In this document: one piece after another, positions 10,608 through 16,959 of the stretch
How the letters are laid out: the number at the start of each line of letters is the position of its first letter
Position numbering within the stretch: the stretch's first letter is position 1
NCBI RefSeq assembly: GCF_007164525.1
Contig: NZ_AP019791.1
Location: 2,405,501-2,469,500 of the forward strand
Length of the DNA: 64,000 bases
DNA from: Rubrobacter xylanophilus
GTDB taxonomy: Bacteria > Actinomycetota > Rubrobacteria > Rubrobacterales > Rubrobacteraceae
Direction: 5' to 3'
Translations under genes and position numbers: made by a program
The notes under the pieces: model-generated
Told to the model about the DNA's origin: nothing
The model's database searches: none
Seen by the model: the letters and a program-made list of their open reading frames with translations, nothing else

Positions 10608-12140
10608 CTAGGGGGTCGCCTGGGGCACCTTCACCGCCCCGGCTGCGTAGACGTTCACCGCCCGGACGTAGGCGCGGGCCGCCGCCTCCACCACGTCCTG
10701 GGAGAGGCCGCGCCCGGCGCACTCGGTGCCCTCGAACTCCACCGTCACCCGCACCTCACCCAGGGCGTCCTTGCCGCCCGTCACCGCGTCGATGCGGAAG
10801 TCCGTCAGGCGGCCCTTTATGCCGGTGGCTGCGTCGATGGCGCGGAAGACCGCATCCACCGGTCCCTCGCCCTCCGCCTCGGCCTCGAAGGTACCGCGGT
10901 CGGCGTGGGCGATCCTGACCGCCGCCCGGCTCTGGCGCCCGGTGGCGGCGACCACCCGGAAGGACTCCAGCACGAACTTGCCCTCGAAGGAGCCCACCTC
11001 GTCGGCGGCGATCGCCTCCAGGTCCGCCGCGGTGACCGTCTTCTTGTGGTCGGCGAGCTCCTTGAAGCGCTTGAAGGCCCGCTTAAGGGTCTCGCCCTCC
11101 AGGGTGTAGCCCAGGTCCGCCAGCGCCTCCTTGAGGGCGTGCCGGCCCGAGTGCTTGCCCAGGAAGATGTTGGTCCCCTCCAGCCCGATGTCTGCGGGCT
11201 TCATGATCTCGAAGGTGCGCCGGTCCTTGAGCACCCCGTCCTGGTGGATGCCCGACTCGTGCAGAAAGGCGTTGCGCCCGACGATGGCCTTGTTGGGCGG
11301 CACGTCATAGCCGGTCATGTTGGAGACCATCCGGCTGGTGTTGGCCAGCTGGCGGGTCTCCACCCCGACCTCCACCCCGTAGTAGTCCCTGCGGGTCACC
11401 AGCGCCATCACCACCTCCTCCAGGGAGGCGTTCCCGGCCCGCTCGCCGATGCCGTTCACCGCCACCTCCACCTGGGTGGCCCCGGCCTCGACCCCGGCGA
11501 GCGAGTTGGCCACCGCCATCCCCAGGTCGTCGTGGCAGTGCACCGAGAGTACGCGGTCTTTGAGGCCCGGCACCCTCTCCTGCAGCTCCCTCAGGAAGGC
11601 GGCGAACTCCGCCGGGGTGGTGTAGCCGACCGTGTCGGCTATGTTGATCACGTCCGCCCCCGCCTCCACCGCCGCGGCGACGACCTCGGCGAGGTAGCCG
11701 ATGTCCGTGCGGGTGGCGTCCATGGGGGAGAACTCCACGTTCTCGCACAGGCTCTTCGCCAGGCGCACCGCTTCGGCGGCGCCGCTCAGGATCTCCTCGC
11801 GGTTCGAGCGCATCTGGTGCTCGATGTGCAGGTCCGAGGTGCCCACGAAGGTGTGGATGCGGGGCCGCCGCGACCAGCGCACCGCCTCCCAGGCCCGCTC
11901 GATGTCCTCTTGGTGGATCCGGGCCAGCCCCGCGATGACCGGGCCCTCCACCTCGGAGGCGATGCGGCTCACCGCCTCGAAGTCCCCCTCGGAGGTGATG
12001 GGGAAGCCGGCCTCGATCACGTCCACCTTCAGCCGGGCGAGCTGGTGGGCTATCTCTACCTTCTCATCTACGGAGAGGGAGATCCCGGGGGACTGCTCCC
12101 CGTCGCGAAGGGTGGTGTCGAAGATCTGGATCCGGCGCAT
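10608..12140 (-). CDS. leuA: 2-isopropylmalate synthase
   Basis: A 510-residue enzyme with the family start [19 protein letters not shown], metal-binding [17 protein letters not shown] and catalytic-domain motif [11 protein letters not shown]. The C-terminal 120 residues form the regulatory dimer domain that binds leucine for feedback inhibition. It condenses acetyl-CoA with 2-oxoisovalerate, the first committed step to leucine. It is the short LeuA type, not the 600-residue type of mycobacteria. About 230 bp separate it from the upstream ilvE, and that gap contains a structured leader that may control it. Confidence 0.95.
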
Positions 12141-12369: not shown

Positions 12370-13326
12370 TCACCGGGCGGTCTTCTCCTTGAGCTCCACC
12401 GGTACGGTCCAGCCGGCGTACTTCTCCCACTCCCCGCGCGCGGCCCGGAAGTACAGCTCCTGCAGCCGGGAGGCCACCGGGCCCACCTCGCCCGAACCCA
12501 CGGGCCGGTCGTCGATCTCCACCACCGGCGCTATCTGGAAGCCGGTGCCGGTGAGGAACACCTCGTCGGCGGCGTAGAGCTCGGTGCGGGCCACGTCTCG
12601 CTCCTCCGTCTCGAGCCCCAGCTCCTCCAGCGCCAGCTCCATCACCGCGTCCCGCGTGATCCCCTCCAGGATGTCCGCGGTGACCGGCGGCGTGATGAGC
12701 CGGCCCTTGCGCAGCAGAAAGATGTTGGCCGCGCTCGCCTCGGAAACGAAGCCGTCGTGGGTGAGGAAGATCGCCTCGTCGTAGCCCGCCCGGTGGGCGG
12801 CGTCCACCGCCAGCGCCGTGTTGACGTACGAGCCGGTGAGCTTGGCCCGGGCCGGCATGGCGTTGTCCGACACCCTCCTCCACGAGGAGACGCAGCACCT
12901 GAGCCCCGTGAGCTCCACGTAGTTGCCCATGGGGGCGGTGAAGATGGAGACCGAGGCCGGAAGCTCCAGCTTCACCCCGATGGACTCCGCGGACTTGTAC
13001 GCCAGCGGCCGGATGTAGGTGTCCTCCCGCGGGGCGTTGCGCCGCAGGATCTCCAGCGTGATCTCACACAGTTCGTCCACGGTGTGTGGCAGCTCTATGT
13101 GCAGCACCCGGCAGCTCTTCTCGAACCGCTCGTAGTGCTCGCGCAGTTTTAGCACCTGCAGGGTCTGACGGCCGGCGTTCCAGTAGGCCCTTATGCCCTC
13201 GAAGACCCCGGTGCCGTAGTTCAGAGCGTGGGTGGCGGGGGAGAGCCTGACATCCCCCACCCGCACGAACTCGCCGTCGTGGTAGCACCACTCGGCGTCA
13301 GAGACCGTAAAGGCGCCGCGCGTCAT
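12370..13326 (-). CDS. ilvE: Branched-chain amino acid aminotransferase
   Basis: A 318-residue fold type IV pyridoxal-phosphate aminotransferase. The N-terminal [11 protein letters not shown], the Schiff-base lysine in [11 protein letters not shown] (about K162) and [15 protein letters not shown] fit IlvE. It transaminates the 2-oxo acids of valine, leucine and isoleucine with glutamate. The ATG overlaps the ilvC stop by 4 bp, so ilvB-N-C-E is a single unit. D-amino-acid aminotransferase is the main alternative in this fold, but the operon argues for IlvE. Confidence 0.94.
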
Positions 13327-14348
13327 CTGCTCTCACCTCCCGCGGGGCTTCCCGCCGTGCTCTCGGCGCCCTCGGCGGCGAGCGCCCGCAGCTCCGCTCC
13401 GACCTTCTCCACCATGTGGGACGCCTCCCGGCGGCGCATCGCCAGGAAGCTGGAGCCCCCGGCCTGGTTCTCGAGCACCCACTCCTTGGCGAACCTGCCG
13501 CTCTGGATGTCCGCGAGGATCTCGCGCATCCTCTCCCGCACGCCTTCGTCTATGACCCTGGGCCCGGCGGTGTAGTCTCCGTACTCGGCGGTGTTGGAGA
13601 CCGAGTAGCGCATGCGGGCCAGCCCGCCCTCGTAGATGAGGTCCACGATGAGCTTGAGCTCGTTGACGCACTCGTAGTAGGCGAGCTCGGGCTGGTAGCC
13701 GGCCTCCACCAGCGTCTCGAAGCCGGCCTTGAGCAGCGCCGAGAGCCCGCCGCACAGCACGGCCTGCTCCCCGAAGAGATCGGTCTCGGTCTCCTCGGCG
13801 AAGGTGGTCTCGAGCACCCCGGCCCGCGCGCACCCGATGCCCCTGGCGTAGGAGAGGACGAGGTCGCGGGCCTGCCCGGTGGCGTCGTTGCCGACGGCGA
13901 AGAGCGCCGGCATCCCCTTGCCCTCCTCGTAGAGGCTGCGGAGCACGTGCCCCGGGCCCTTGGGGGCCACCAGTCCCAGGTCCACCTCCGGCGGCACCTG
14001 CACCTGGTTGAAGTGCACGTTGAACCCGTGGGCGAAGAGCATCAGGTCGCCCTCGGAGAGGTTGGGGGCCACCTGCTCCCGGAAGACCGGCGGCTGCCGC
14101 TCGTCCGGCAGGAGCATCATCACCACCTCGGCCCAGCGCACGGCCTCCGGGATCTCGGCCACCCGCAGCCCCGCTTCCTCGGCCTTGGGCCAGCTCGCCG
14201 AGCCCCTGTACAGCCCGACTGTGACTTCGCAGCCGGAGTCCCTGAGGTTCAGCGCATGGGCGTGCCCCTGGCTGCCGAACCCCAGCACGGCGATCCTCTT
14301 CTGCGAGATCTCGTTCCCTATGTCTCCCTCGCGGTATACCCGCGCCAC
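13323..14348 (-). CDS. ilvC: Ketol-acid reductoisomerase
   Basis: A 341-residue class I (short) KARI. The NAD(P)H-binding loop is [30 protein letters not shown] and the acidic metal-binding residues of the knotted C-terminal domain ([28 protein letters not shown]) are present. It isomerises and reduces acetolactate or acetohydroxybutyrate. The start is GTG at 14348, which has GGGGGAGGTGAG just upstream; an ATG 51 nt further upstream only adds a low-complexity, arginine/glycine-rich extension that overlaps the ilvN end. This start gives the usual family length. Confidence 0.95.
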
Positions 14349-14352
14349 GCTC

Positions 14353-14808
14353 TCACCTCCCCCTTCCCGGCCGGGCGACGGGCCCGAGCCGGATCGCATC
14401 CTCTACACCCTCGCCGAGCATCCGGAGCCACTCCTCCACCGGTCCCGGCTCCCCGGAGGCCACCACGGTGCCGCCGTCCTTGTGGGCCACCACCCCGGCC
14501 CGCACCGCGGCCTCCCGCCATCCCTCGCCGGTGGCGGCGAGGGCGACCTCCAGCACCTCCCCGGCCTCCCGCACCTCCCGGACGTCCTCCAGCGAGGAGA
14601 GCAGGGCCATGTAGCGCCGGGCACTCTCCGGCTCGCACTCGAAGAGTGCCACGACCACGCTCTCCTCCGGCCCCATCCCCACCGTCAGCCCCCCGATGGG
14701 CATCCGCTTGCCCTGCAGGGTCATCAGGAAGCGGTTGAGGGCGTAGATGCCCCCGGCCATGCGGGCCTCGACGGCGACGGCGAGCGTCCCGCTGGCCGCC
14801 TCAGGCAT
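14353..14808 (-). CDS. ilvN: Acetolactate synthase small-subunit-like regulatory protein (divergent)
   Basis: A 151-residue protein placed between ilvB and ilvC and overlapping the ilvB 3' end by 8 bp, the standard position of ilvN. The N-terminal half has an ACT-like layout: a strand, a glycine pair ([17 protein letters not shown]) and a strand [10 protein letters not shown]. It lacks the usual IlvN strings for glycine-rich valine binding and for the 'R-x-G-F-N' loop. The C-terminal half is not recognisable as the standard second domain. It is most likely a diverged regulatory subunit for valine feedback; binding of valine cannot be judged. Confidence 0.7.
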
Positions 14809-16495
14809 CTTCCTCGATCATCTCGGCCACGCTCATGCCCGAGGGGATCATGGGGTAGACGTTGGCCTCCGGGTCGATGTGGAAGTCCAGCACCACGCAC
14901 CCGGGCCGCTCCTGCGCCCAGCGCACCGCCTCCTCGATGTCGTCGCCGGGCCGGACGGTCCTGCCCGCTATCCCGTAGGCCCGGGCGAGGTGCTCGTAGT
15001 CCGGCCCCGTGATCGGTGTCTCGGAGTAGCGGCGGTTGTGGAAGAACTGCTGCCACTGGCGCACCATCCCCAGATAGCCGTTGTTGAGGACGGCCACCTT
15101 GATGTCCAGCCCGAGGTCGCGGATGGTGGCGAGCTCCTGCAGGTTCATCTGGAAGCCGCCGTCGCCGGCCACCACCCACACCGGGTCCTCGGGGCAGCCG
15201 AGCTTGACGCCCATCGCCGCCGGCAGCGCGAAGCCCATGGTCCCGAGCCCGCCGGAGGTGATGTGGCTGTTTCTCTTGGTGAAACGGAAGAACTGGGCCG
15301 CCCACATCTGGTGCTGGCCCACGTCGGTGACCAGCCGGACCTCCTCACCGGCTATCGCCTTTATGGCGTCCATGATCCGGATCGGGCCGTACTCCGGCCG
15401 GGCCCGCTCGGCCCGCTCCCGCTCGGGGCGCTGGCTCTCGGCGATCTGTGCCCGCCACGCGGCGCAGTTGTCCTGCGGCCGCTCGATGTGGCGCAAGACG
15501 CCCCGCAGCGCAGCCCTGGCGTCGGCGGCTATCCCCACGGTGGGCCGTATGACCTTGCCCAGCTCCGAGGGGTCGATGTCTATGTGGACCACCCTGGCGT
15601 TGGGGGCGAAGCGCGAGGGGTCGCCCGTGATCCTGTCGTCGAAGCGCATCCCCACCGCGAAGAGCAGGTCGCAGCGGTCTATGGCCCGGTTGACGGAGGC
15701 CTGCCCGTGCATCCCCGGCCACCCGATGTACAGCGGATGATCCTCCGGGATGGCGCTGATCCCGAGCAGGGTGGTGACCACCGGGGCCCCGGTCCGCTCG
15801 GCGAGCGCGATGAGCTCCCGCTCGGCCCCGGAGAGGATCACGCCGTGCCCGGCGAGGATGATCGGACGCCGGGCCTTCTTGAGCAGCAGCGCCGCCGCCT
15901 CGAGCGCGGGGCTGGAGACCGGCGGCGGGGCCTCGCGCAGCGCCCGGTAGCCGTCGCCGCCGCACTCGGCGAACTGCACGTCCTTGGGCACGTCGACCAG
16001 CACCGGCCCGGGGCGGCCGGAGCGGGCTATGGCGAAGGCCCGCCGCATGGTCTCGTAGAGCTCCTCCGGGTCCTCGACCAGGAAGGAGTGCTTGGTGAAG
16101 GGGAGCGTCATCCCCATGACGTTGGTCTCCTGGAAGGAGTCCTTCCCCATCGCGCCCCGCCCGACCTGCCCGGTTATGGCCACCACCGGTACGGAGTCCA
16201 TCTGCGCGGTGGCGAGCCCGGTGACCAGGTTGGTCGCCCCGGGGCCGCTGGTGGCCACGCACACCCCGACCCTGCCCGTGGCCCGCGCGTAGCCGTCGGC
16301 CGCATGGGCCGCGGCCTGCTCGTGCCGCACCAGAACGTGCCTGAGCGGGTAATCCGGGAGGGCGTCGTAGAAGGGCATGATCGCCCCTCCGGGGTAGCCG
16401 AAGAGGTACTCGACCCCCTCGTCGAGCAGAGCCTCGCACATGGCCTCGCTGCCGGTCCGGGGCTTGTACTCGACCTTGTATGCTATGTTCTCCAC
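14801..16495 (-). CDS. ilvB: Acetolactate synthase large subunit
   Basis: A 564-residue thiamine-diphosphate enzyme. The catalytic glutamate is in RHEQAAAHAADGYARATG (about E59). The FAD-binding middle domain and the GDGGFQMNLQELATI...NN thiamine-diphosphate motif near residue 430 are intact. It condenses two pyruvates, or pyruvate and 2-oxobutyrate, at the start of valine/leucine and isoleucine synthesis. First gene of the ilvB-N-C-E operon; its 320-nt leader contains a promoter and a leader ORF rich in CTA codons. The ATG lies 10 nt downstream of GGAAGGATGGG. Confidence 0.96.
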   Translation of the reverse strand: MENIAYKVEYKPRTGSEAMCEALLDEGVEYLFGYPGGAIMPFYDALPDYPLRHVLVRHEQAAAHAADGYARATGRVGVCVATSGPGATNLVTGLATAQMDSVPVVAITGQVGRGAMGKDSFQETNVMGMTLPFTKHSFLVEDPEELYETMRRAFAIARSGRPGPVLVDVPKDVQFAECGGDGYRALREAPPPVSSPALEAAALLLKKARRPIILAGHGVILSGAERELIALAERTGAPVVTTLLGISAIPEDHPLYIGWPGMHGQASVNRAIDRCDLLFAVGMRFDDRITGDPSRFAPNARVVHIDIDPSELGKVIRPTVGIAADARAALRGVLRHIERPQDNCAAWRAQIAESQRPERERAERARPEYGPIRIMDAIKAIAGEEVRLVTDVGQHQMWAAQFFRFTKRNSHITSGGLGTMGFALPAAMGVKLGCPEDPVWVVAGDGGFQMNLQELATIRDLGLDIKVAVLNNGYLGMVRQWQQFFHNRRYSETPITGPDYEHLARAYGIAGRTVRPGDDIEEAVRWAQERPGCVVLDFHIDPEANVYPMIPSGMSVAEMIEEDA

Positions 16496-16568
16496 CGTTT
16501 TCCCATCCTTCCTGGTCGCGAGTTCCGTCGAGAGAGAGGGCCTGTGTGCCGGTGAGGACGGGTTTTCT

Positions 16569-16590
16569 GCGGTAGGGTTTCCCGCCCCGC
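16569..16590 (-). promoter_or_regulatory. Hairpin after the ilv leader ORF
   Basis: GCGG and CCGC form the outer stem, and GGG-AAA-CCC the inner stem, with a small internal loop. It starts 5 nt after the stop codon of the leader ORF, where an attenuator hairpin would be expected. No U-run follows, so if it terminates, it would do so by a U-poor mechanism common in GC-rich actinobacteria. Confidence 0.4.
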
Positions 16591-16594
16591 GGCT

Positions 16595-16783
16595 TTAGGC
16601 GGACCGGATGGCGTCTACCCGGCCCGCCCTGCTAATGCCTAGTAGTAGCTCCCCTAGGCGATGGGCGGCGGGGACGCCGAAGATGGATACTCGCGGGTGG
16701 ATGGGAGGGGTGAGCAGACGGGGCGAACCGGGCCTGCTGCCCGGCGTTTCTCCTGTGCGCGCCCTGTCCGAAACTTCGCTCAA
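16595..16783 (-). CDS. ilvB operon leader peptide
   Basis: A 62-codon ORF starting at TTG, with AGAGAGGG just upstream, about 35 nt after the predicted transcription start. Near its 3' end are one CTA, then three CTA in a row, then ATT, and a little later GTA, that is, leucine, isoleucine and valine codons of the type avoided in this genome (CTA at 16655-16657 and 16640-16648; ATT at 16634-16636). The ORF ends about 100 nt before ilvB, and a hairpin follows it. This is the classic arrangement for ribosome-mediated attenuation of a branched-chain amino acid operon. The longer-than-usual leader length is odd; translation could also begin later. Confidence 0.7.
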   Translation of the reverse strand: MSEVSDRARTGETPGSRPGSPRLLTPPIHPRVSIFGVPAAHRLGELLLGISRAGRVDAIRSA

Positions 16784-16824
16784 GGTCCCTCTCTGGTGCG
16801 GGTATTCTTAAAGCTGCAGGCTGA

Positions 16825-16854
16825 AGGGTATGACACCTCTTCGGGGTTTGTCAA
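16825..16854 (-). promoter_or_regulatory. Promoter of the ilv operon
   Basis: A perfect -35 hexamer TTGACA (16849-16854) and a -10 hexamer TACCCT (16825-16830) with an 18-bp spacer on the minus strand. Transcription would start near 16818, leaving an RNA leader of about 320 nt before ilvB that contains the leader ORF. Confidence 0.7.
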
Positions 16855-16877: not shown

Positions 16878-16930
16878 GTGGTCGAGGCCGGTTGGTATGT
16901 GGAGGGGGGAGAGTCGCCGTTCTCGACCAC
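16878..16930. repeat. 9-bp inverted repeat upstream of the ilv promoter
   Basis: GTGGTCGAG (16878-16886) and CTCGACCAC (16922-16930) are perfect inverted copies 35 bp apart, ending 24 bp upstream of the -35 hexamer. It may be a spaced operator for an activator or repressor, or a hairpin between thrB and the ilv promoter. Function unknown. Confidence 0.4.
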
Positions 16931-16959
16931 GCGGCAAGGATAGCAGCGAACCGCCCGGC

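Follow-up and report, generated by a model that had tools for sequence, protein, structure and literature searches.

The window analysed here, a 64,000-nt stretch of Rubrobacter xylanophilus DNA, carries on its minus strand a biosynthetic operon that begins with ilvB, preceded by a promoter and a leader ORF (Table 1). The 151-aa ORF at 14353-14808 (-) matched no NCBIfam or Pfam family; standing at the ilvN position, it may be an acetolactate synthase small subunit that has diverged strongly. The leader ORF lies between the promoter and the first gene of the operon, as in attenuators, and the ilvB start is found 99 nt downstream of the leader stop codon. AGGGA precedes the TTG start of the leader at 16783, and its 62 codons include four CTA, two GTA and one ATT. 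The original prediction for this DNA had described the promoter (TTGACA-18-TACCCT), the start with a ribosome-binding site, the 62-codon leader and the same codon counts, and all of these are present on the minus strand, as is the hairpin that it placed directly after the leader stop (hairpin T). Hairpin H1 had been missed, which is the most stable and most conserved one and sits inside the last codons of the ORF.

Table 1. Features of the ilvB leader region and the downstream operon, in window coordinates
Feature	Position	Strand	Basis
-35 hexamer TTGACA	16849..16854	-	sequence; TTGACA-like, same place in most relatives
-10 hexamer TACCCT	16825..16830	-	sequence; 18-nt spacer from -35
Leader ORF, TTG start 16783, 62 codons, TAA 16597-16595	16595..16783	-	sequence, ORF conservation
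Candidate anti-Shine-Dalgarno TCCCATCC inside core codons	16699..16706	-	pairing tests (suggestive)
Core codons P-P-I-H-P-R-V, ending in invariant rare CGA GTA	16688..16708	-	CGA, GTA 26/26
Segment 1 (CCGCCGCCC), upstream arm of HA enclosing control codons	16663..16671	-	pairing versus shuffles
Control-codon run CTA GGG GAG CTA CTA CTA GGC ATT	16634..16657	-	sequence; conserved positions CTA 25/26, ATT 25/26
Segment 2 (GGGCGGGCCGG), 5′ arm of H1 and 3′ arm of HA	16619..16629	-	H1 pair conservation
Segment 3 (CCGGTCCGCCT), 3′ arm of H1; its GCCU also base of T	16597..16607	-	conservation, folds
Hairpin T after stop codon, GCCGCGGGGCGGG...CCCGTCCTCACCGGC	16548..16593	-	sequence, folds
AGGC, 3′ side of T base, pairs with GCCU 16600-16597	16540..16543	-	fold with ribosome in H1
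Pyrimidine tract CCTCTCTCTC, where relatives carry U-rich tract	16530..16539	-	comparison of loci
ilvB Shine-Dalgarno region GGATGGGA, complement of candidate anti-Shine-Dalgarno	16501..16508	-	pairing tests (suggestive)
ilvB, acetolactate synthase large subunit, GTG start, first controlled gene	14801..16495	-	TIGR00118, E 5.9e-205
151-aa ORF, ilvN position between ilvB and ilvC	14353..14808	-	no family match
ilvC	13323..14399	-	PRK05479
ilvE	12370..13326	-	TIGR01122
leuA	10608..12140	-	TIGR00973

Upstream of the ilvB promoter, at 16880-16935 (-), a further hairpin, GTGGTCGAG...CTCGACCAC, encloses a C-rich loop (CUCUCCCCCCUCC). At least eight relatives (L003-L006, L008, L014, L017, L018) carry similar C-rich-loop hairpins ahead of ilvB, with stems that are changed yet complementary (GTGGCCGGG/CCCGGCCA); their alignment was too poor for model building. 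The window hairpin matched nothing in Rfam, and a clear second copy was not found elsewhere in the genome; it may be a terminator or a small RNA that has escaped annotation.

A search for IlvB in 39 Rubrobacteraceae genomes yielded 30 ilvB loci with upstream DNA. The leader was kept at all 30 loci, with the whole ORF in 28 of them, while two loci end at contig edges yet retain the 3′ part of the leader. The frame is intact in 27 of the 28 and stays open over 54 to 62 codons despite the differences in length. In the remaining leader (L020, genome G028) one C fewer in a C-run near CTCCCCCATTCACC causes a frameshift and a stop at GAGTAA, perhaps explained by decay or by an error in sequencing. 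A profile built from the family alignment (A1), which matches the window leader at E 2.7e-20, found the leader in 31 of the 39 family genomes and in 21 of the 22 good ones; the sole good genome without it also has no close ilvB match. Across 396 genomes of the phylum every clear profile match falls in Rubrobacteraceae, and one genome of the same phylum outside the family (G210) gave a borderline match (E 4e-4). Twenty named leader loci belong to Rubrobacteraceae, Rubrobacter, R. taiwanensis or Actinobacteria MAGs and nearly all duplicate family loci, and a spread beyond the family was rejected on these grounds. Judged by these sequence searches, the leader is restricted to Rubrobacteraceae in the genomes searched. 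A search for a second copy in the same genome returned weak partial matches only (E 0.004 and 0.007).

The aligned leaders have the consensus MSEVSxxxQxxxSGLxLxxxRLLTPPIHPRVxTxAVPxALRLIxRAGRxGxLRSA. Protein-level selection is concentrated in the core LxPPIHPRV, where pN/pS is 0.10 compared with at least 0.85 in the other parts of the leader. The PPIHP codons of the core differ among leaders at their wobble bases, while CGA GTA is invariant (26/26). Indels come in multiples of three, and the TTG start is conserved together with its context. The original prediction depended on translation of the leader ORF, which is what the maintained frame, the low pN/pS of the core and the conserved start context point to.

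Rare codons are a second shared property of these leaders, measured here against the ilv-leu genes of the window and the 30 ilvB genes as reference. In ilvB, ilvC, ilvE and leuA of the window, CTA accounts for 1 of 140 Leu codons, ATT for 0 of 83 Ile codons and GTA for 6 of 156 Val codons, bearing out the avoidance of CTA and ATT that had been proposed for the genes of this window. Across the family (27 leaders; ilvB of 30 loci), CTA makes up 39% of Leu codons in the leaders versus 2.4% in ilvB, with corresponding shares of 34% versus 2.6% for ATT among Ile codons, 38% versus 4.0% for GTA among Val codons and 29% versus 2.2% for CGA among Arg codons. In the aligned leaders GTA and CGA are each kept in 26 of 26, and one later CTA and the ATT each in 25 of 26, so that the rare codons singled out by the original prediction do persist in related genomes. 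The control codons for the amino acids of the pathway are therefore both conserved and enriched, as in attenuators. Their placement within the aligned leaders, GTA early and CTA and ATT near the end, is well established at the sequence level, and we infer from the codons that a single leader would sense Leu, Ile and Val together. Of the 45 tRNA genes found, one encodes tRNA-Leu(UAG), the tRNA that reads CTA. tRNA-Arg(UCG) is absent from these 45, and CGA must therefore be read by a tRNA with an ACG anticodon; CGA is therefore probably a slow codon in the leader.

Three competing hairpins are predicted around the control codons and the leader stop. H1 (16629-16597) is an 11-bp hairpin in the last leader codons that ends on the first base of the stop codon. 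It is paired in 99.4% of pair cells across 28 sequences, with a double change in one pair only; because it hardly varies, its support comes from conservation rather than covariation. HA joins the 5′ arm of H1 to a C-rich segment that precedes the control codons. Over 29 loci HA has 4.12 expected pairs versus 1.2 ± 0.32 after shuffling of the C-rich segment, it is weaker in the window genome (2.3 expected pairs), and its column covariation is weak. The base of T has 4.3 expected pairs versus 3.02 ± 0.53 in shuffled sequences, with 0 of 30 shuffle sets as high. Since this base is formed by the GCCU at the end of H1 and the AGG(C) after T, H1 and the complete T are mutually exclusive. AGG follows the T hairpin in 27 of 30 loci, and the 12 nt after it contain on average 4.37 U across loci versus a background of 2.16. 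A U-rich tract stands behind T in about half of the relatives and is weak or missing in the rest; the window genome has no U-run there and carries a CU tract (CCUCUCUCUC). The lack of a U-run terminator, which the original prediction had called unusual, is thus true of this genome, but it is peculiar to this genome and some of its relatives.

A further helix, P0, joins the Shine-Dalgarno (SD) region of the leader itself to the LLT codons. P0 has the best covariation (12 double-change cells versus 4.3 ± 1.6; 0 of 500 shuffles), and it was not evident in the window genome or its sister (L002, L003). The most diverged member of the family (L030), which represents the same locus as R. taiwanensis L054, has lost H1 and keeps the CTA and GTA codons, a P0-like pairing and a 9-bp complement between the leader and the SD of ilvB.

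The effect of a translating ribosome on these hairpins was modelled by masking 12 nt from the A-site codon onward, and values are means over 29 loci. Without a ribosome, H1 stood at 0.37, HA at 4.1 pairs and the T base at 2.6 pairs. With a ribosome stalled at the first or last CTA, H1 rose to 0.89 or 0.77, the T base fell to 0.2 or 0.8 and HA was reduced to 0-0.5 pairs. A ribosome inside H1 gave 0 for H1 and 4.3 pairs for the T base. In the window alone the CTA stall gave 0.99 for H1 and 0 for the T base, and a ribosome in H1 gave 4.1 for the T base. The hairpins are therefore mutually exclusive and switched by ribosome position in silico, although not universally in the family; these models supply the alternative structures (HA, H1 and extended T) that the original prediction presupposed. 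In the models, a ribosome on the stop codon is nearly the only condition that keeps the upper part of T from forming, so the switch rests on the short base stem. A terminator/antiterminator pair in which the whole of T acts as a unit was rejected, since T does not switch, only its base. With the ribosome stalled at ATT, half of H1 is covered, which in the model would favour termination.

Taken together, the alignments establish that the leader ORF is under coding selection and contains rare control codons, and that three predicted RNA hairpins compete. Throughout the family, ilvB is preceded by this ORF with its start context, control codons and hairpins; such recurrence places the leader well beyond chance, and the family-wide leader-peptide control region at ilvB is real. 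Regulation by branched-chain amino acids, in the broad sense, is very likely. The conserved codons, the kept frame and the competing hairpins likewise support the attenuator layout that had been predicted upstream of the ilv operon, and a ribosome-mediated transcription attenuator of ilvB-(ilvN-like)-ilvC-ilvE-leuA, reading the supply of charged Leu-, Ile- and Val-tRNA, is the explanation that we favour with moderate confidence. With ample amino acids, the ribosome would enter or pass H1 and leave the GCCU of segment 3 free, T would form with its full base beside the pyrimidine or U tract, and transcription would stop. During shortage, a ribosome stalled on CTA (or on the earlier GTA) would block HA and let H1 form, and H1 would withdraw the GCCU from T, so that transcription would continue into ilvB. 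In the absence of translation, HA is predicted to form in about half of the species and T would again be complete. The modelled switching follows the logic of a trp/ilv-type attenuator (1:2, 2:3, 3:4), here with segment 3 ending at the stop codon.

Several observations count against attenuation: the U-run that is missing here and weak or missing in about half of the relatives, the near-constant upper part of T, the partial masking of H1 by an ATT stall, the weak covariation of HA and the scant covariation of H1, the loss of H1 in L030, and codon substitutions in the ilvB leader of Streptomyces coelicolor that were without effect (PMC1262725). The missing U-run in the window and the long, C-rich leader would suit an arrangement in which leader translation governs Rho-dependent termination instead of an intrinsic terminator, but we consider this improbable in view of the conserved T hairpin and the twofold enrichment of U behind it across the family. 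The structured and conserved 5′ region might also belong to a ligand-binding RNA (T-box, ppGpp riboswitch) or to an independent small protein gene, readings that we regard as very improbable: a covariance-model search of the leader against Rfam (T-box, riboswitches and others) matched no family at gathering score and gave none credible at a relaxed threshold, the leader has no Pfam match, the control codons and the frame are kept, and protein-level selection is confined to nine residues. A gene antisense to the leader was likewise rejected, as stops occur in all three antisense frames at 28 of 28 loci.

A different output is suggested by the PPIH codons UCCCAUCC (16706-16699), which form an exact 8-bp complement to the SD region of ilvB, GGAUGGGA (16508-16501). 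Pairing of the two would keep ilvB off until a GTA-stalled ribosome frees it, a translational attenuation that might act in place of the terminator, which we think rather unlikely, or may act together with it. The complement is perfect over 8 bp in the window and spans 7-10 bp in most relatives, the pairing belongs to the MFE fold of 13 of 30 loci, window included, and variants of the Ile codon tend to accompany matching variants of the SD (AUC with GGAUGGG, AUU with GAAUGGG). Cognate partners bind better than permuted ones (4/5000, in permutations that do not remove shared ancestry); with one locus per genus, p ranged from 0 to 0.078 in 20 draws and was mostly below 0.05, and double-change cells numbered 12 versus 7.1 ± 3.1 in shuffles, while the shuffle result for paired cells was 11 of 500. 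Against this, the pairing is absent in the close loci L004-L006 and poor in L013, L017, L018 and L024, the cognate preference is not significant for the wider ilvB initiation region (339/5000), and modelled SD accessibility goes up only from a mean of 0.24 to one of 0.34 for the GTA stall. The leader-SD pairing is thus suggestive as a second output. Pairings of the core with the ilvB start codon, seen by eye in L004-L006 (UCCACGGUG/CACCGUGGA) and over 8 bp in L013, L022 and L024, were discarded, the wider-region test being not significant. About ten loci, including the window (about 16508-16530), carry ACUCG(C/U) before the ilvB ribosome-binding site (RBS); by eye and in folds it could pair with the invariant CGAGU of the core and extend the leader-SD helix.

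The core could alternatively act as a peptide, with the conserved PPIHPRV strengthening or triggering the stall by nascent-chain arrest. It would lie about 10-18 residues from the peptidyl-transferase centre of a ribosome on the CTA/ATT run, selection at the protein level is found on the core only, and ordinary control-codon leaders have no need of such a conserved peptide. However, the core shares nucleotides with the candidate anti-SD and has the 3′ arm of P0 just upstream, either of which may explain the conservation, and CGA GTA is conserved at the codon level; we therefore give arrest little credence. A composite of these ideas, a dual-layer sensor in which the PPIHPRV codons serve as stall-promoting peptide, as Val control codon after a slow CGA and as mask of the ilvB RBS while the CTA/ATT run works a separate terminator, is doubtful. 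The conserved core nonetheless raises the question of what role the long leader peptide has beyond reading tRNA supply, just as those lineages in which CU tracts replace U-runs raise the question of how termination works there.

In attenuators of the E. coli trp/ilvGMEDA type, 1:2, 2:3 and 3:4 hairpins compete and the control codons lie beside segment 2. The favoured attenuation mechanism shares both of these features, whereas the Rubrobacter leader is longer, has its stop codon at the end of segment 3 and would switch its terminator through a short base stem. As the original prediction stated, actinobacterial ilvB leaders are already known, in Corynebacterium (PMC10272879) and as candidates reported in Corynebacterium, Mycobacterium and Streptomyces (PMC1262725). 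The ilvB-II motif, or ilvBNC uORF attenuator, of Corynebacterium likewise has a uORF with Leu, Ile and Val codons before ilvB, occurs once per genome and forms two hairpins with competing terminator and antiterminator pairings (PMC10272879). Its uORF usually has 15-17 codons (PMC10272879), in contrast to the 54-62 codons and the conserved core besides the sensing run in Rubrobacteraceae, and the predicted unusual length is evident from this comparison; the U-run is part of the motif there and is found in about half of the relatives here. Membership in ilvB-II (a 15-17-codon uORF spanning P1, then P2 with a U-run) was accordingly rejected, given the length of the leader and the lack of a U-run in the window genome. 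The candidates of the three genera share a short ORF whose branched-chain amino acid codons overlap hairpins upstream of ilvB (PMC1262725); the Rubrobacter ORF is much longer and specifically keeps the rare CTA, GTA, ATT and CGA. The LEU element of actinobacterial leuA resembles the putative second output in that leader codons are proposed to pair with the SD of the controlled gene (PMC1262725), but it has a leucine codon run and a pseudoknot, whereas the Rubrobacter candidate consists of PPIH codons at ilvB and no pseudoknot was seen.

The 2005 survey that described these elements included Rubrobacter xylanophilus, but the ilvB leaders that it reported were all from the three other genera (PMC1262725). 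A description of a Rubrobacter ilvB leader was not found in open-licence literature, and an earlier one outside open-licence papers is possible. With the present leader, a deep-branching actinobacterial class for which that literature reports none would join those whose branched-chain amino acid synthesis is under leader-peptide control. While the principle is known from the systems above, what appears to be new is the family in which this leader occurs, together with its length, its conserved peptide core, P0 and the CGA-GTA pair.
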